42,897 bases of DNA from a virus, in the IMG/VR virus record IMGVR_UViG_3300043425_000403, positions 1 to 42,897 of that record; one strand, given 5' to 3'. The notes under the pieces are model-generated. The model did not search any database. It saw only the letters and a program-made list of their open reading frames with translations, and had not been told where the DNA came from. The position numbers and the translations under genes are program-made. Positions 2,937 through 42,897 of this stretch are shown here, one piece after another (positions within the stretch are counted from its first letter, which is position 1; each line of letters starts with the position of its first letter).

Positions 2937-5608
2937 CGAGCGCCCCCCTTGACTGTGCTGCCCGTCATCTTAAACGCCCGCGCTTGCTTTTGAATCGAAT
3001 CGGCCAAGGCCGCGCCTTCACGCATGAACAAATCGCGCACGCTCTTGGCGTCCACCGCTGAAATATTCACATGCACAGCGCCACCCCCGCCACCGCCACC
3101 GCCCGACATGCCACGAATCACGTCGGCTTGCTCTTTGGGCAAAACCATCTCGCTTTCGTGTAGCTGCGTCACGGGGTTGACCCCTGCGGGCACGTCAAAG
3201 CCCTTGGAGGCGCTGAATAACTTCTTTGCACCCATGACCAAGCCAATCGTCGCAGCGAAGGCGGCAGCGGCCATTGCGGGGCCGACGTAGGGGATAGACG
3301 CTTGGGACGCTGCCGCACCCGAACCCGCTTCGGCGGCGTTGGCCGCGACGACTGTGCCCGCCTCGGCGACTTTGGCTTGTGTGACCAAGGTGCTTGACAT
3401 GATTTGCTGCACAACGTACTTCGCCAACATATTCGTGAAGGCGTCGAGAATCGCGCCCGCCATGCCGCGAACCAAGTTGGTCAACGTCATCGTGCCTTTC
3501 ATAAACGATTGCAAGACGCCCGTCATGCCACTTTCCATGCCGTCGAAAAACTGTTTGGAGTATTTGCCTTGCTCCAACGTGCTTTTCGCCTTGATCTCGG
3601 TCATCTTGGCTTGGTGGTCTTGCTCCAATTGCTGAATGGCGCTGTTGATTTTCTCGATTTCGACAATGTTTTTGTCGGGGTCGAGTTGAGCCAATAGCAA
3701 ACGCTGACCGAGGGCTTCGCGCTTGATGGCAATGCGTTCTTCTTCAAACTTGCGTTCGTTCTCGATCGCTTGCGCGGCGGTCGTGATGCCTTGATCGACT
3801 TCGATTTGGGCCAAGCGTGCGCGTTGTTCGATGGCGAACAGTTGCGCCGATTCGGATTGCGTGCGCTCCTCCTCGGCGACTTGCTTCAATTGCTCGCGCT
3901 TTTGGCGTTCAAGCTGCACGATCTGCGCAGACGCCAACTTGAATTCCTTGGATTCTTCGCCGTACTTTTGCTTGATGACTTCCGACGCTTGCGTGGCAAT
4001 CGCAATCTTCGCGTCCATGTTGGAGCGGTACGCGTCCATTTGCACTTTGAAGTCTGCAAGGTTGGCTTCGAACTCGGCCTTGTTGATTTCGAGGCGCTTG
4101 GACAACGCCTTTTTCTCGACTTGCAAGCGCTGTTCTTCGGTGAGGCTTGCGCCCTTCAACTTACCTTCCCAAAACTCGGCTTCGCGCTGGCGACTGAATT
4201 CGTAGAACGTGCCGTTCTCTTTGTTCATTTTGTCGTGCGCCAACTTCATGCGCTCCAACTCGTTCTCGTATTTGGCGAGCGCGTTTTTGTCCTCGGGCGG
4301 CACGCTAGATTTGAGCGGCTTGTAAGTGGGCGAGGGTTTATCGCCCTCTGCGCCGTCGCCTTTCATGTCCTTTTTGGCTTGGTTGACGCTATCGCTCAAA
4401 CCAAGAACGCGCTTTTCGAAGGCATCCAACTCGGCGCGTGACTTCTTCGCCTCCTCTGCCGCCTCGTTGAAGATTTTTGGAATATCGGAGAACTTGCCCT
4501 TGGCAACCGCTTCAACGATCAAGCCAAACGCAATGAAGTCTTTGGCGATCGACACCACCATGAACTTCAAGTTGGCAAAAATGATGATGACGGTTTCGAT
4601 CACCGTGCCCAAGGCGCGACCGATCGCGCCCATGTAATCGAGTTTCCCCGATGTGCCATCGGCTTCGGCTGCGGTGTCTTTGAAAATGTCCGAGAGGGCG
4701 CGAATGTAGCCGCTCAAAATATCAATGAAGCGGGCCAACGTGCTTGTGCTTTTGTTGGCCGTGTCGTATGCGCCGACCAAGCCGTAAACGTCGTTCTTCA
4801 TGCGTGTGAACGCACCGCCCACGGTGTCGGGCAATCCTGCGGTTTCGTTGCGCAGTGCATCGACTTGTTTGATAAGGGCGTTGCCGATCACGTCCGAGGT
4901 CAACTTGCCCTCTGTGCCCATTTGCTTCAACTTCTCGATGGGCACGCCCATGCCGTCCGACAACGCTTGCAGCAAGCGCGGCGCGGCTTCGGTCATGGTG
5001 CGGAATTCGTCGCCTTGCAACTTACCCGAGCCGAGCGCTTGGCCGAACTGCAACGTCGCGGCGGCGGCTTCTTGTGCGCTTGCGCCCGAGATGCGCATGG
5101 ACATGGCAAACGCGTCGGTGATCGCGCCCGTTTCCTGCACGCCACCACCAAGACGGGTGACGGCGGGATGCAACTTCGTGTAAAGCGAAGTCGCTTCCAT
5201 GAGGCCAATGTTATTGGCTTGGGCAATGCGGTAAATCTCTGCCTGTGCGGTCTTGAAATCTTCGGACGACTTTACGGCCAGCTTCAAGCGAGCGTCGGCC
5301 AACGTCACGTTGTCGGCCATGTCCACGAAGGCTTTGCCAACGGCGATGATTGCGGCCACGGATGCAAAGCGACCGATCACGCCCGCCGTGCCTTCAACGG
5401 CTGTGGCGGTGCGGCCCGATTGCTCTTTGATTTCGTTGAGCGATTGGTTTACCGATTGGGTGCTTGTCTGCATCCCTTTCGCCATCGACGAAAAGGCTTT
5501 TTCCATGCGGCCCACGGCGGCTTCTAACGCGGCGGCGGCTTGCGCTGTGCCTTCTTTTAAGCCCGAGGTTTGCGCCCCAAACTTGACTTCAATGTTGTTG
5601 TCTGACAT
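2933..5608 (-). CDS. Tail tape measure protein
   Basis: At 891 aa this is the longest tail protein of known type. It has an N-terminal tape-measure domain (LADARLKLAVKSSEDFKTAQ and DEFRTMTEAAPRLLQAL regions, about residues 60-260), a hydrophobic stretch near 330-365, a long charged coiled coil at about 440-670, and a hydrophobic Ala-rich region near 740-800. A Gly-rich run precedes the C-terminal VHVNISAVDAKSV segment. It sets tail length and follows the chaperone pair as usual. It has a strong Shine-Dalgarno (AAAGGGG) and is separated from the chaperones by a terminator-like hairpin. Confidence 0.92.
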   Translation of the reverse strand: MSDNNIEVKFGAQTSGLKEGTAQAAAALEAAVGRMEKAFSSMAKGMQTSTQSVNQSLNEIKEQSGRTATAVEGTAGVIGRFASVAAIIAVGKAFVDMADNVTLADARLKLAVKSSEDFKTAQAEIYRIAQANNIGLMEATSLYTKLHPAVTRLGGGVQETGAITDAFAMSMRISGASAQEAAAATLQFGQALGSGKLQGDEFRTMTEAAPRLLQALSDGMGVPIEKLKQMGTEGKLTSDVIGNALIKQVDALRNETAGLPDTVGGAFTRMKNDVYGLVGAYDTANKSTSTLARFIDILSGYIRALSDIFKDTAAEADGTSGKLDYMGAIGRALGTVIETVIIIFANLKFMVVSIAKDFIAFGLIVEAVAKGKFSDIPKIFNEAAEEAKKSRAELDAFEKRVLGLSDSVNQAKKDMKGDGAEGDKPSPTYKPLKSSVPPEDKNALAKYENELERMKLAHDKMNKENGTFYEFSRQREAEFWEGKLKGASLTEEQRLQVEKKALSKRLEINKAEFEANLADFKVQMDAYRSNMDAKIAIATQASEVIKQKYGEESKEFKLASAQIVQLERQKREQLKQVAEEERTQSESAQLFAIEQRARLAQIEVDQGITTAAQAIENERKFEEERIAIKREALGQRLLLAQLDPDKNIVEIEKINSAIQQLEQDHQAKMTEIKAKSTLEQGKYSKQFFDGMESGMTGVLQSFMKGTMTLTNLVRGMAGAILDAFTNMLAKYVVQQIMSSTLVTQAKVAEAGTVVAANAAEAGSGAAASQASIPYVGPAMAAAAFAATIGLVMGAKKLFSASKGFDVPAGVNPVTQLHESEMVLPKEQADVIRGMSGGGGGGGGAVHVNISAVDAKSVRDLFMREGAALADSIQKQARAFKMTGSTVKGGAR

Positions 5609-8672: not shown

Positions 8673-8960
8673 TTACTTCTTTGCGTCGGCCTGTGCTTTC
8701 GCTTCGGCTTCGGCGGCTGCGGCGGCTTCCGCTGCGGCAGCTTCTTCGGCTTCGGCTTGCGCCTTGGCTTCGGCTTCGGCTAACGCTGCGGCTTCCGCTG
8801 CGTCGTCTTTGCTGTCGTCCTTCGCTTTCGCGTCGGTGAAGCCGTGAAACATGGCAACCGCGATCGCGTCGCCTTCGACTTCAATCACGCCTTTTTTCAC
8901 TTCATAGAGTTCGCCGCCGTGTGAAAAGCTGCTTACGCCGTTTGGTGCTTTGAGTTTCAT
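8673..8960 (-). CDS. Small Ala/Glu-rich protein after the capsid gene
   Basis: A 95-aa protein starting MKLKAPNGVSSFSHGG. I chose this ATG because the upstream open frame runs through paired hairpins and lacks a binding site. Residues 1-42 are a compact domain (ELYEVKKGVIEVEGDAIAVAMFHGF). Residues about 45-95 are almost entirely Ala, Glu, Asp and Lys, a predicted charged helix. I do not recognise a function. Position between major capsid and connector suggests a head component. Confidence 0.7.
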   Translation of the reverse strand: MKLKAPNGVSSFSHGGELYEVKKGVIEVEGDAIAVAMFHGFTDAKAKDDSKDDAAEAAALAEAEAKAQAEAEEAAAAEAAAAAEAEAKAQADAKK

Positions 8961-8993
8961 GTGGTGCTTTCGTTGTGGTTCGATGACATGGCA

Positions 8994-9037
8994 GGGGGCG
9001 CAAACCCCCTTCCACGATACGACGGGGCCGAAGCCCC
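8994..9037 (-). other. Tandem GC hairpins in the 3' flank of the major capsid gene
   Basis: Two stem-loops follow the capsid stop on the minus strand: a GGGGC-TTCG-GCCCC stem with a stable TTCG tetraloop (9024-9037) and a GGGGG...CCCCC stem (8994-9009). Neither has a T tract, so they look more like mRNA 3'-end protection or partial attenuation than simple terminators. The function is inferred. Confidence 0.5.
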
Positions 9038-9056
9038 GCCGATACATTGCCGTCGC

Positions 9057-25378: not shown

Positions 25379-26161
25379 ATGCACTCCTACCACTTCCACA
25401 TCGGCGACTATGCCAGCCACACGGCGCACCTCAGTGACGCCGAAGATTTGGCATATCGGCGGTTGCTCGATTGCTATTACCTCCGCGAAGGTCTGTTGCC
25501 CAACGACCCCTCGGAGTGCGCCCGCCTCGTTCGGATGAGAAACGAGGTCGAGGCCGTCACCTCGGTGTTGGCCGAGTTCTTCGAAGCCACCCCCGACGGA
25601 TGGCGAAGCGCCCGTTGCGACGCGGAGATTGCGGCCATGCAATCCCGCCAAAAATCTGCACGCGAGAGCGCCGAAAAGCGTTGGCATAACGCCAAGTCAT
25701 CCGTTGGCAATGCGTCTGCTATGCCATCGCATACCGAACCCAATGCTACCAATACCAATACCAATACCAATACCAATACCAATACAACAACCCCCAAAGC
25801 CCCCAAGGGGGCCGATGACCCGTTGTTTGCGGAGTTTTGGGCAGCGTACCCACGCAAAGAGGCCAAGCCCAAGGCGCGGCAAGCCTTTGCCAAGCACAAG
25901 CCCACGCCTGAATTGCTGGCAACCATGCTGACAGCGTTGGCCGCGCAAAAGCAATCCGACCAATGGAGCCGTGACGGTGGGCAGTACATCCCGCACGCGA
26001 CAACGTGGTTGAACCAAGAACGATGGAGTGACGAGATCGCGCCGCCGCGCACGATCGCCATGCCTGTCAGCAAGTCGGGTGAGAACAACCGCAACGTGTT
26101 GTCGGGGTTAACCCGTGGATTCATTGGAGGGCGACCCGATGCCAAATTACTTGGAAAGTGA
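25379..26161 (+). CDS. DUF1376-type replication protein
   Basis: A 260-aa protein. Residues 1-100 (YHFHIGDYASHTAHLSDAEDLAYRRLLDCYYLREGLLP ... RQKSARESAEKRW) match the DUF1376 domain found in phage replication-initiation proteins. A (Asn-Thr)n linker at about 123-137 is encoded by a hexanucleotide repeat. The C-terminal part (FAEFWAAYPRKEAKPKARQAFAK ... YIPHATTWLNQERW) is a winged-helix-like module typical of helicase-loading primosome proteins. It likely recruits host replication proteins to the phage origin. Confidence 0.85.
   Translation: MHSYHFHIGDYASHTAHLSDAEDLAYRRLLDCYYLREGLLPNDPSECARLVRMRNEVEAVTSVLAEFFEATPDGWRSARCDAEIAAMQSRQKSARESAEKRWHNAKSSVGNASAMPSHTEPNATNTNTNTNTNTNTTTPKAPKGADDPLFAEFWAAYPRKEAKPKARQAFAKHKPTPELLATMLTALAAQKQSDQWSRDGGQYIPHATTWLNQERWSDEIAPPRTIAMPVSKSGENNRNVLSGLTRGFIGGRPDAKLLGK
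25751..25786 (+). repeat. Hexanucleotide tandem repeat (AATACC)6 inside the replication gene
   Basis: Five exact AATACC units and one AATACA unit, directly after the AATGCTACC string. Each unit adds Asn-Thr, so changes in copy number keep the frame and only alter linker length between the two domains of the protein. Confidence 0.85.
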
Positions 26162-33820: not shown

Positions 33821-34039
33821 ATGGGACATGAACAAGTCTTTACGGGATGGGTGAAGCTGCGCAAGTATTGCGAGATCAGCGGCGAGACACCAAGCGGCGT
33901 TCACGCCAAGCGGCGTGCGGGCCATTTTGTTGACGGCGTACACACGAAGGTCGCTGGCGACGGGAATTTGTACGTTCACATCGGGGCGGTGCAAAAGTGG
34001 GTATCGGACGGAGCGAAAGGGGTTTGCCAACAGGCGTGA
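33821..34039 (+). CDS. xis: Excisionase-like protein
   Basis: A 72-aa protein: FTGWVKLRKYCEISGETPSGVHAKRRAGHFVDGVHTKVAGDGNLYVHIGAVQKWV. This matches the small Xis/excisionase-like winged-helix family found upstream of phage integrases. It would bend attachment-site DNA and favour excision. It overlaps the 5' end of the integrase gene, so the two are made together. Confidence 0.85.
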   Translation: MGHEQVFTGWVKLRKYCEISGETPSGVHAKRRAGHFVDGVHTKVAGDGNLYVHIGAVQKWVSDGAKGVCQQA

Positions 34040-35175
34040 CGGTGCGCAAGCACAAGCAAGCGCAAACCATCCAAATCACGTTTCAAATGGGGGCAATTCG
34101 GTGTCGTGAATCGCTGCCGCTGCCCCCAACCCCCGCCAACATCAAGTTCGCCAAGGCATTGCGCGACGAGATCATGGCAAAGATTGTTCGGGGCGTTTTC
34201 AATTACGGCGAATATTTCCCCAAGTCGCCGCGTGCCAAGAAGACCGCCAAGCCCGCCGACACGCTCACCGTCGGCGCAATGTTGGACGCCTTCATTACCG
34301 ATTCCCAAGCCGCTGTCGATCGCGGCAACATGGCCCCGTCCACGTTGGACGGCTACCGCAAGGCCGTGCGTCACCACTTGAAACCCTATTTCGGCGCAAT
34401 GCTGGCTTCGGAGGTGACAGGCGCGACGATTCGGGCTTGGGCCAAGTCGGTGACGCTCACGGCCAAGACGGTGCGAAATACGCTCATCCCCTTGCGGGCG
34501 GTGTTCTCCGATGCCATCAACGACGATGTGGTGAAGGCCAACCCGTTTGACCGCGTTGCCCTCGATCGCATCTTGGCGAAGTCGGCCACGCCCTCGACCT
34601 ACGTTGTAGACCCGTTCACGCCAACCGAGGTGGCCGCAATCTGCAACGCCGCCAAAGGCCAAGCCCGCAACTTCATCAAGTTTGCCTTTGCCACGGGGTT
34701 GCGCACCTCCGAGTTGATCGCGCTGCGTTGGTCGGACGTTGACATGAAAGCCCGAACCGTGCGCGTGCATCGCGCCTTCGTGCTGCAATTGGAGAAAGGC
34801 CCAAAGACCGTGGCGGGCAATCGGGTCGTCGAACTCGACGATCAAGCAATGGCCGCACTTGAAGCCCAACGCGAGTGGACGCTATTGCAAGGCAAACTTG
34901 TCTTTCACAACCCGCGCACGGGAAAACCGTTACTCGACGACCAAGCCGTGCGAAAGTGCATTTGGAAGCCCGCGATCGAGGCCACCGACGTGCGTTATCG
35001 CAACCCCTATCAAACGCGCCACACCTACGCGAGCACGCGCCTGTCGCAAGGCGCAAACCTGTGGTGGATGGCTGCGCAAATGGGCCACGAAGACGTTCAA
35101 ACGATCTCGCGGGTTTACGGCAAGTGGATTCCCGAAGCGGGCCAAGTTCAACAAACCAAAAAGGGCGGGGCATGA
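33997..35175 (+). CDS. int: Tyrosine integrase
   Basis: A 392-aa protein from a GTG at 33997. A second GTG at 34036 overlaps the xis stop (GTGA) and would give 379 aa. An N-terminal arm-binding domain (IRCRESLPLPPTPANIKFAK) is followed by a core-binding helical domain and the catalytic domain. In 392-aa numbering: Arg236 in TGLRTSELIALRW, a likely Lys270, Arg341 in YQTRHTYAS (Tyr replaces the usual first His of HxxR), His364 in QMGHED and Tyr374 in SRVYGKW as nucleophile. It recombines attP, just downstream, with the host tRNA gene. Confidence 0.95.
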   Translation: MGIGRSERGLPTGVTVRKHKQAQTIQITFQMGAIRCRESLPLPPTPANIKFAKALRDEIMAKIVRGVFNYGEYFPKSPRAKKTAKPADTLTVGAMLDAFITDSQAAVDRGNMAPSTLDGYRKAVRHHLKPYFGAMLASEVTGATIRAWAKSVTLTAKTVRNTLIPLRAVFSDAINDDVVKANPFDRVALDRILAKSATPSTYVVDPFTPTEVAAICNAAKGQARNFIKFAFATGLRTSELIALRWSDVDMKARTVRVHRAFVLQLEKGPKTVAGNRVVELDDQAMAALEAQREWTLLQGKLVFHNPRTGKPLLDDQAVRKCIWKPAIEATDVRYRNPYQTRHTYASTRLSQGANLWWMAAQMGHEDVQTISRVYGKWIPEAGQVQQTKKGGA

Positions 35176-35486
35176 ACAAGCAACGAAGAAAGCAACTCGG
35201 CGACGCGATCGACGCGCTCACCGCCATTGAAGGCGAGGTGGAAGCGCTGCGGGTCAAATTTGAAGCGCTGCAAGCGCAAATCAGCGCCGTGCGCGACGAG
35301 GAGCAAGACGCTTACGACAACCTACCCGATGCGCTCAAAGAGGCCGAGCGCGGCGTGGAGATGGAGGAGGGGTTGACCCAAATCGACGAGGCGCTTGGGG
35401 CCGTCGAAAGCGTGGTGGAAGTGCTGCAAGAATTCAGCGTGGGCGAGACAAGTCGCACGCTTGATGAGGCACGCGGCGGCGAGTAA
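35172..35486 (+). CDS. Small coiled-coil protein after integrase (104 aa)
   Basis: It starts at an ATG overlapping the integrase stop: MNKQRRKQLGDAIDALTAIE. It is entirely helical with heptad-like spacing (EGEVEALRVKFEALQAQISAVRDEEQD) and a C-terminal acidic helix. It is the last gene of the rightward operon. Its 3' end carries one copy of the GGCACGCGGC motif repeated in the att region. Role unknown, but it is co-expressed with integrase. Confidence 0.75.
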   Translation: MNKQRRKQLGDAIDALTAIEGEVEALRVKFEALQAQISAVRDEEQDAYDNLPDALKEAERGVEMEEGLTQIDEALGAVESVVEVLQEFSVGETSRTLDEARGGE

Positions 35487-35489
35487 TTG

Positions 35490-35510
35490 GGCACGCTCAC
35501 GGCACGCGGC
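35490..35510 (+). repeat. 21-bp repeat, left copy (candidate integrase arm-type site)
   Basis: Two GGCACGC units start 11 bases apart and the element ends in GCGGC. It matches the copy at 35686-35706 at 19 of 21 positions, differing only in the two bases after the first unit. It lies 57 bases left of the tRNA-like core. Confidence 0.7.
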
Positions 35511-35567
35511 AAAACTCGGCGTGGTAAAAAAACAACAGCGTTAAGGGGTTGGGCCAAACCGCAACGC

Positions 35568-35592
35568 GGGTTCGAATCCCACCCTCTCCGCC
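35568..35592 (+). other. attP: attP core: 3' end of a tRNA-Ser-like gene
   Basis: The 25 bases begin GGGTTCGAATCCCA (T arm) and continue into CCCTCTCCGCC (acceptor 3' strand, discriminator G, CC). The T loop TTCGAAT is intact and the acceptor sequence resembles tRNA-Ser. No 5' half or anticodon arm is present, so this is not a complete tRNA gene. Integration here would restore the 3' end of the host tRNA. It lies 393 bases after the integrase stop. Confidence 0.85.
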
Positions 35593-35685
35593 CCCGCACA
35601 CAATCAAACAACGCCGAAAACGTCGCCAATCAACCGCTTAGATTTGAGCGCGTGTTGGTTGATGTTGTGAAGTGTCCGTTCGGAT

Positions 35686-35706
35686 GGCACGCATACGGCA
35701 CGCGGC
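35686..35706 (+). repeat. 21-bp repeat, right copy (candidate integrase arm-type site)
   Basis: Same orientation and same 11-base internal spacing of GGCACGC as the left copy, 93 bases to the right of the tRNA-like core. A third, inverted copy of the heptamer follows at 35723. The arrangement around a core is what heterobivalent tyrosine integrases use. Confidence 0.7.
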
Positions 35707-35764
35707 GGGCGGGCACGAAGGCGCGTGCCGCGATTGGCACACGCCCAAGCGATCGCAAGCGCCG

Positions 35765-35914
35765 TCAACGAACCTGTCGGCGTCGCTCGCGTCTAGCCTT
35801 TTCCCGCTCGGCACGCTTTCGCATGTCGTAGTCTTCCGTCGGCTCGCGCTTGCTAGGTTGTCGCTCTCGTTTGAGCGGCGAACCGTCTTCGTCATGGCGT
35901 TTTTTGCTGCCCAT
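35765..35914 (-). CDS. Small highly basic protein after Rz (49 aa)
   Basis: MGSKKRHDEDGSPLKRERQP starts a 49-aa protein rich in Lys, Arg and Glu (RKRAEREKARRERRRQVR at the end). It overlaps the 3' end of the Rz gene by 23 bases in another frame. I prefer it to a longer, Cys-rich frame starting at 35895, which has less protein-like composition. The Shine-Dalgarno is weak. It could bind nucleic acid. Uncertain. Confidence 0.45.
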   Translation of the reverse strand: MGSKKRHDEDGSPLKRERQPSKREPTEDYDMRKRAEREKARRERRRQVR

Positions 35915-40991: not shown

Positions 40992-42897
40992 TTAGTACCC
41001 TTGGGCAATCCAATTGACTGTGCGGGCCACGCCCACGCCGCCGTTGATAACCTTGACCGTGAAGCCATTCAGCGTTTGCGCTGTAAGCTGCACGTCATCG
41101 CCTTGTTGCGCTCCGACGATTGTCGCTTGCACAGCGGGCACGGCCAAACCATTTGCGCCACCGTTGAACGGCGCGGAGTAGGTCACGGTCGAACCGCCTG
41201 TTGCGGTCGTCAAAGATGATGTGTCGATTCTATCGGGCACATCTACGGAAAAGACAAAGTTCGCCAAAATCGGCGAGATCGTTACGCTGTCCGAGTGAAG
41301 CAACACGCGGGCTTTGAAGAATTTTGCGTTGTAGTAGCCCGAAACGAAGTTTTGCCAATCCCCAAACACGCCGTCGGCCCCTGCAATTGCAATTTGCGGT
41401 TGAATAAAAATATTTGGGCCAAGGGTGGTTTCTAAGAAATCATCAACGGCGAACACGTCCACCATTGCTAACACGTTGCCCGTGATAGCCGTTGCGCCCG
41501 CTGTGTAGTTGATGAGCACGTTGCAAGGCGTAACGCGCCCCGCATTGATGGTGTGGGCACTTGGTAGGGTGTAAATGCCGTCCGTGACGGTGTATTGGCC
41601 GCCCGACGAGCTAAACACAAGGTCGCCACCTGTAACAACGAGCCCCGCGCTTTTTGTGCCGCTCCAACCCGTGCTTTCCTCGTCCCACGTTGCCAGCACG
41701 TTCGACACAAGCGCAGATTGCGCGATTTCAATGCCCTTTGGCGTGGTCGAATAGACGGTTCCCGCTTCCGAAACCACACGCGCCGCCACCCAATACATAC
41801 CCGAGGTTGGGACGACATATTGCGTGATCGGGGTTCGGGTCATCACTTGGCCCGTTTCCCATGACGTACCTAATCGCACCTCGTAAGTAATGTCGGTGCG
41901 GAAGTCGTTTACCCTGTCCCAATAGAGTGTCGTCAAGCCGCCAACGAAGTTGTTGTAATTCGACAACAGGTTGGTCACATCGGCGGGCGTAGACAACAAC
42001 GCCGAACCTGTGATGGTGTAGGTAAACGGGTTCACGTCTGCAAGCGTTTGCAGCGCGGCCCCGTACACGTTGAACGCGGGCAGCTTGATAAAAATTTGCT
42101 GACCGATCTTGTCGGAGGTGAAAGACAACTTCGCCACCGCCGTGTCAACGCGTAGAAATTGGCTGTTGATGGCGTGCGCTTCGATTGCTGTGCCGTAAGC
42201 GCCGCGACGCAAATATGTGAGGTTGTATGCGTTCGCGCCCGTCAAGGTGGCGTTGGCGTAACTTACCAACTCGCCGCCCACATAGCAGAGGGTCGCATAC
42301 AAATCCGCGTCGGTCTGCGAGGCGTTCAACAACTCGCCGTTGCTCATCGACAGGTTGACGCTTAACGTGTTCGCCGTGTCGGGGTCGCTGTGCGCTGGCA
42401 ACGCTGCGGTCAGAACGCCTTGGCGTGCGGGTTGCCCAATGTCGGCGACTTGCAAGTATGTCTCGCCGTCGTAAGAAACCCACACTTGGCAACCGCCCCA
42501 ATCCGAACCACCGCTTGCGCCAATCCAAACTTCAAGACCGTTGGCGGTCGTCGCCAATGCTGCGGGCGCTTCGAAGATGACGGGGCCGCTTGTGTTGCCC
42601 GCTGGCACGTTGAAGTCGTTTTGGTGGCCGCTGCCTTCGGGTGAATCGTAGGTGGCCGAACTAAACACGCCCGCTGGCGCGTCTTCGGCGGTGATGTTAA
42701 ACGTGTAGTCGTCGCGCTCCTCGATCGACAGAATACGCACGGGCTTTTGGTCAAGGCCAAGCGTCGTGTCGGTGATCGTGATGTAGTCGGTCGGCTCCAA
42801 CAGAGCGAAGCGCACGCCCACGCTGAATTCGTAGGTGTTGCGAACGTATAGGGCACGCTGCAAGATCATTTGCGCGGCAGCGCGTGCAACGGCGGGG
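40992..42897 (-). CDS. Tail-tip / host-specificity protein, C-terminal part (cut by window edge)
   Basis: Open to the window end. The first readable residues are PAVARAAAQMILQRALYVRN, in frame with LLEPTDYITITDTTLGLDQKPVRILSIEERDD, a well-known segment of siphovirus tail-tip proteins. Later regions include LTYLRRGAYGTAIEAH and fibronectin-like beta-rich domains (about 300-420 of this part). It is the continuation of 963-1. If the ends were joined directly the frame would be off, so a short stretch is missing. Confidence 0.85.
   Translation of the reverse strand, partial: PAVARAAAQMILQRALYVRNTYEFSVGVRFALLEPTDYITITDTTLGLDQKPVRILSIEERDDYTFNITAEDAPAGVFSSATYDSPEGSGHQNDFNVPAGNTSGPVIFEAPAALATTANGLEVWIGASGGSDWGGCQVWVSYDGETYLQVADIGQPARQGVLTAALPAHSDPDTANTLSVNLSMSNGELLNASQTDADLYATLCYVGGELVSYANATLTGANAYNLTYLRRGAYGTAIEAHAINSQFLRVDTAVAKLSFTSDKIGQQIFIKLPAFNVYGAALQTLADVNPFTYTITGSALLSTPADVTNLLSNYNNFVGGLTTLYWDRVNDFRTDITYEVRLGTSWETGQVMTRTPITQYVVPTSGMYWVAARVVSEAGTVYSTTPKGIEIAQSALVSNVLATWDEESTGWSGTKSAGLVVTGGDLVFSSSGGQYTVTDGIYTLPSAHTINAGRVTPCNVLINYTAGATAITGNVLAMVDVFAVDDFLETTLGPNIFIQPQIAIAGADGVFGDWQNFVSGYYNAKFFKARVLLHSDSVTISPILANFVFSVDVPDRIDTSSLTTATGGSTVTYSAPFNGGANGLAVPAVQATIVGAQQGDDVQLTAQTLNGFTVKVINGGVGVARTVNWIAQGY

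Follow-up and report, generated by a model that had tools for sequence, protein, structure and literature searches.

The lambda Int protein is heterobivalent, with its N-terminal domain placed on arm sites, its C-terminal domains on the core and IHF bending the DNA between them; lambda possesses five arm-type sites (PMC4880445). Among the mycobacteriophages, the attP sites of CrimD, Giles and L5 (PMC3203893) as well as of Omega and BAKA (PMC3706429) have been predicted to carry pairs of arm-type repeats around a common core. A separate subgroup of arm-binding tyrosine recombinases, IntBPP-1, is defined by an arm domain, PF12167 (DUF3596), together with a tyrosine recombinase catalytic domain; it includes the integrases of BPP-1, Gifsy-2 and Stx2a phages and is known from gamma- and betaproteobacteria and phages (PMC8138268). 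No account of the arm sites of this subgroup was found in a limited search of the open-access literature.

The stretch of DNA analyzed here (the window, 42,897 bases) is an IMG/VR virus record representing a temperate-phage contig, with genes for terminase, portal, tape-measure and tail proteins. It is highly probable that the region downstream of its integrase gene (int) is the attP of this phage, where four Int protomers would occupy two plus two GGCACGC arm units around a tRNA-Ser core; the binding, the stoichiometry, the role of IHF and the crossover position are inferred. The features of the region are listed in the table below. A recombination block (RecT, an exonuclease-like protein, RdgC, SSB, and NinB) precedes an excisionase-like gene, which is followed by int, a small ORF and attP. 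The overlap of the excisionase-like gene with int was also seen in the phages phiNP, LLS, and phiES15. The gap between int and the core is 392 bp and contains this single small ORF, and phage genes flank the attP region on both sides. The 25-mer core was present as a single copy in the whole window; no complete tRNA gene (ARAGORN) and no RNA genes of any kind (Rfam, ARAGORN) were detected in it.

Table. Features of the predicted attP and the genes preceding it (positions in the window).
Feature	Coordinates	Strand	Remarks
Excisionase-like protein	33821..34039	+	phrog_2917 excisionase, E 1.1e-4; overlaps int start
Tyrosine integrase, IntBPP-1-type	33997..35175	+	PF12167 arm domain and PF00589 catalytic domain
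Small coiled-coil-like ORF	35172..35486	+	phrog_4068 (PHROG family without assigned function); between int and attP
Extra GGCACGC	35468..35474	+	Inside 3' end of the small ORF; 22 bp (two turns) outside P-arm dyad
P-arm dyad	35490..35510	+	GGCACGC at 35490 and 35501; outer edge ~86 bp from T-loop center
Predicted attP common core, tRNA-Ser 3' end	35568..35592	+	GGGTTCGAATCCCACCCTCTCCGCC; half T arm, acceptor stem, GCC of 3' terminus; exact 24-mer match to tRNA-Ser ends
Predicted 7-bp strand-exchange overlap, TTCGAAT (T loop)	35571..35577	+	GGG/CCC flanks; from sequence symmetry and tRNA identity starting there
Putative IHF site, AATCAACCGCTTA	35628..35640	+	Perfect match to consensus WATCAANNNNTTR; between core and P' dyad, 60 bp from T-loop center
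P'-arm dyad	35686..35706	+	GGCACGC at 35686 and 35697; outer edge ~130 bp from T-loop center
Inverted GGCACGC	35723..35729	-	Outside P' dyad; from heptamer search
Single GGCACGC	35810..35816	+	104 bp outside P' dyad

A genome-wide search with the exact 24-mer of the core returned at least 119 matching stretches in many phyla, and of the 31 genome loci tested, 30 had a tRNA-Ser that ARAGORN placed across the match (anticodon CGA in 28, GGA in one, and TGA in one), the single locus devoid of such a call having its match at the cut edge. The core had originally been predicted to be a tRNA-Ser-like 3' end, with a proposal to search genomes for a tRNA-Ser gene ending in the same letters, and the 24-mer search bears the prediction out. 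The accompanying claim that the site directly predicts the host target holds for the target class, tRNA-Ser, but not for the host, since a 25-mer spread across many phyla names the former and not the latter. With a cutoff of E <= 1e-50, relatives of the integrase with PF12167 were detected in 25 of 399 Burkholderiales genomes, as against none of 385 genomes of the Sphingomonas class (Alphaproteobacteria); the presence of the family in Burkholderiales and its absence from the sampled Alphaproteobacteria only hint at a betaproteobacterial host. In the window, the 5' strand of the T stem reads GCGGG and pairs incompletely with CCCAC, and identity with a working tRNA thus seems to begin at about the T loop. 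TTCGAAT is a natural candidate for the 7-bp overlap on these sequence features.

The two 21-bp repeats share the same orientation, are identical at 19 of 21 positions and lie 196 bp apart, each made of two GGCACGC units 11 bp apart, and their coordinates, orientation, and identity were all reproduced as originally described. The heptamer had been counted as five direct copies and one inverted copy within about 260 bases, which is correct for 35468–35729, while the whole of 35468–35816 holds six direct copies and one inverted. It had also been judged far above chance. Within 35487–35831, six copies are present, counting both strands, against a maximum of three in 2000 dinucleotide shuffles, which agrees with that judgment; however, some heptamer of any sequence reached six or more copies in ~3% of the 2000 shuffles, so that the copy number alone is less striking and the geometry is the exceptional part. 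A four-site scan, searching for two units 9–13 bp apart repeated 90–330 bp away, gave the attP a score of 14.0, the best in the 42.9-kb window (runner-up, 11.0), and the maximum over 600 shuffles of the region was 12.5. Hence, the repeated sites on both arms exceed chance by the shuffles as well as by the scan. With regard to the copies outside the dyads, the one at 35468 is a possible third P-arm site, and that at 35810 may be due to chance; a counterpart of the extra copies at 35468, 35723, and 35810 was established in none of the relatives.

The integrase, whose reading frame is open and encodes the expected domains, lies directly upstream of the site; its PF12167 domain spans residues 11–78 (E 3.6e-22) and is followed by the catalytic domain PF00589 (E 3.7e-19). 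Its start codon is GTG, and the alignments of relatives begin from the upstream start. This domain composition is shared with the IntBPP-1 integrases, and the assignment to the subgroup is by these domains, a further criterion of the subgroup being a beta-stranded insertion in the catalytic domain; the best named-phage match of the window integrase is only ~42% identical. A single-sequence search with it across viral contigs gave no matches, and relatives among these contigs were retrieved with an alignment query instead.

Relatives with integrases 35–43% identical to that of the window were found to possess attP sites with the same layout, in which either side of the core holds two units spaced by 11 bp; in almost every case, this core is the 3' end of a tRNA or tmRNA. 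The distance between the pairs was 194–196 bp in six other phages, two of them with an author-annotated attP, and 162 or ~184 bp in others, and the arm motif differed wholly between clades while the layout was kept. In LMessi, LLS (Escherichia), and phiES15 (Cronobacter), the attP resembles that of the window in its 11-bp dyads, in a pair distance of 195–196 bp and in a T loop offset by 20–24 bp from the four-site midpoint; LLS and phiES15 also share the xis-int-attP order. They differ from the window in their tmRNA-type core and in arm motifs that are unrelated or only partly similar: ATGCAC units in LMessi (196 bp), an ATGCAC-like motif around the annotated attP of phiES15 (196 bp), and AAAGGATAC-like units around that of LLS (195 bp). 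The relatives whose attP was examined mostly use a tmRNA-type end, whereas the window and L193, a viral contig with the same 24-mer, use tRNA-Ser. The L193 integrase is ~36% identical to that of the window and as a query matched only L193 itself; its TTTGGGGC units, unlike GGCACGC, stand at 5196, 5207, 5392, and 5403, i.e., 11 bp apart in pairs separated by 196 bp. At L193:5195–5412, the orientation of the tRNA-Ser core with respect to int and the arm repeats is opposite to that in the window, the arm spacing still being 196 bp, and a third unit follows 9 bp after the second.

Another relative (L321) carries TTTCGCCC units with a pair distance of 194 bp, and a recognized tRNA or tmRNA end was absent between its arms. 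For phiNP, the scan gave a distance of 220 bp, which becomes 195 bp, as read by hand, without one duplicated 25-bp core. In the phiNP record OR565852.1 (L416/L417 junction), the 25-bp tmRNA core GGTTCAACTCCCGCCAGCTCCACCA occurs twice in tandem at the ends of the circular record; probably, both prophage att copies were retained when the record was cut. The Pseudomonas phages CF60a, 5400, JBD68, and Hali have ATGACAGC units with a pair distance of 162 bp, MR13 and many viral contigs (the TTTCAGCA clade) have distances of 182–185 or 162 bp, and Halomonas phage H4907 was read by hand as bearing AGTCA-type dyads (11 and 12 bp) ~160 bp apart. The four-site scores of LLS, phiNP, and phiES15 were low (10.5–11, with nulls reaching ~10), and their layouts rest partly on their flanking an annotated or obvious core. 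No layout was returned by the scan for Kp4866-6 (L242), which nonetheless has a P dyad at -86, or for PhiR12_2, which seems to have been cut at prophage-type ends. Prophage relatives showed, as expected, a single arm near int and no four-site pattern, and served as an internal negative set. A score of 12.5 in L372 was discarded, its units (CCGAAGAAA and others) being of low complexity. The original prediction that the geometry is that of an attP for a heterobivalent tyrosine integrase is supported by the PF12167 arm domain and by the same layout in relatives with unrelated motifs.

The motif followed the integrase as the layout did not. In L249, whose integrase is ~50% identical to that of the window, GGCACGC-CGAC-GGCACGC is present at the 3' end of int in the P-arm position, the dyad GGCACGC-N4-GGCACGC being exact; L248 (51% identical) has GACACGCAAACGACACG, and L444, from a Burkholderiales genome (46–48% identical), carries a pair of TTGGGCACA units that precede the T loop by 64 bp. 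In the integrase tree, the nearest rows to the window by path were L248 and L249. By comparison and tree together, the layout is conserved in relatives while the motif tracks integrase kinship, which is what recognition by an arm domain predicts, and the N-terminal domain of the integrase is the likely binder of the 21-bp repeats. An attempt to reconstruct an attP for L248 and L249 from their IMG/VR prophage ends failed; the L248 record has no sequence beyond the int stop codon, and the remaining prophage ends held no matching dyad or core. The lambda arm motif is different, and the lambda core is not a tRNA.

As compared with the five arm-type sites of lambda (PMC4880445), the window has a balanced set of two plus two. 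The mycobacteriophage attP sites are similar to it in attP layout, which is the extent of this comparison, as opposed to integrase kinship: two pairs of ~10–11-bp predicted arm-type repeats flank the core, but the motifs differ, the CrimD pairs are mutually inverted, and L5 has extra sites. Such pairs of arm sites flanking a core are already known, and the site in the window is a well-formed example of modest novelty.

The distances to the core were found to fall into a few classes. The T loop lies 20–24 bp from the four-site midpoint in the window, LMessi, LLS, and phiES15, ~26 bp in the 162-bp phages and ~37 bp in the 184-bp phages. Measured from the T-loop center, the outer edge of the P arm lies at about 64 or 86 bp (96 bp in one case), the former two differing by two helical turns, and that of the P' arm is near 117, 130–132, or 139 bp; members of the TTTCAGCA clade keep the P arm at 64–65 bp while P' shifts by 22 bp. 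When integrases were clustered at 85% identity, the 12 clusters having a strong P dyad showed distances grouped modulo 10.75–11 bp (R 0.90), with a nominal p of 6e-5 that ignores ancestry and the choice of period; as the 12 clusters fall in few clades, the independent evidence amounts to a handful of changes. L193, with its core facing the other way, is off these distances, and in L367 the P-dyad call at -87 is tied with a TTCAGCAAC/TTCAACAAC dyad whose distance to the T loop is ~64 bp. There is about an even chance that the attP arms of PF12167 (IntBPP-1) integrases follow a fixed plan independent of sequence, with 11-bp dyads on each side and distances changing by whole turns (P at ~64, 86, and perhaps 96 bp; P' at ~117, 130, and 139 bp), such that attP sites and arm motifs would be predictable from geometry alone. 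If the rule were true, attP and arm motifs could be located in phages and prophages without experiments, and a route would be available to study how arm-domain specificity changes under a kept intasome shape. Among the results, this geometry shared across families most merits further work and is possibly a new regularity.

In the proposed mechanism, the phage DNA would circularize upon infection and four integrase protomers would assemble on attP, each N-terminal domain gripping one arm unit (two in P, two in P') with the C-terminal domains on the core. The DNA between core and arm would be bent, probably by IHF at the P'-side site, allowing a protomer to bridge an arm unit and the core. The window contains three exact matches to the IHF consensus against 0.89 expected by chance; in the relatives, the match was not kept at the same place and scattered one-mismatch sites only were observed. 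The strands would be exchanged with a host tRNA-Ser gene within its T loop or close to it, and the 3' end of this gene would be restored by the phage-borne 25-mer after integration.

Direct repeats one helical turn apart are also typical of excisionase (RDF) operators, as in the five Apl sites with 10–11-bp spacing in the 186 attP (PMC7498355) and the tripartite site of imperfect direct repeats bound by Gifsy-1 Xis in attP (PMC2603039), and an excisionase-like gene adjoins int in the window. The repeats could accordingly be taken as excisionase sites rather than sites of the integrase arm domain, a reading we regard as improbable. The sites of the RDF systems compared (Apl, Gifsy-1 Xis) occur in runs of three or five, and efficient Apl binding needed three adjacent operators (PMC7498355), whereas many relatives have the core flanked on both sides by a single repeat pair, with the distances matching. 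It is the balance of two plus two around the core that makes excisionase binding the poorer fit; four units equal four integrase protomers, and Xis could still bind elsewhere in attP.

It is less probable still that the region is decayed or the remnant of a prophage end (attL/attR) and has lost the ability to recombine: the phage is known from the contig only, the analysis found no lysogen of it, and prophage ends bearing one arm make up many of the relatives, but the window has both arm dyads around one core present in a single copy, phage genes on both sides and an intact int frame with its domains. Least probable of all, and very unlikely indeed, is a role of the repeats as operators for a transcription regulator or their chance occurrence in GC-rich DNA beside a tRNA-like fragment. 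The shuffles in which some heptamer reached six copies and the single GGCACGC copies outside the dyads would fit such an origin; against it, the layout was unequalled elsewhere in the 42.9 kb or in the 600 shuffles, relatives whose sequences are unrelated show the same spacing and distances, and L249 keeps the exact dyad. The preferred reading as an integrase attP provides candidate arm sites and a target class for the integrase of an uncultivated phage, along with a comparative set of unrelated arm motifs within one geometric frame.

Joining the window ends extended the right-end tail gene by only ~11 codons, and the tail-family match of this gene begins at profile position 117; the window hence looks like a linear contig that is probably incomplete. 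The last minus-strand gene (40992–42897; tail protein, Rcc01698_C) seemingly lacks its N-terminal part at the window end. Two further repeats were observed away from attP. An (ACCAAT)n hexanucleotide repeat at 25747–25792 encodes an Asn-Thr run and falls in the linker of a replication-initiation/primosomal protein gene (25379–26161). Degenerate GCTTCGGC-type repeats in a GC-rich stretch at 8683–8809 overlap a small minus-strand ORF (8673–9047) without a PHROG match and look like an Ala-rich coding repeat.
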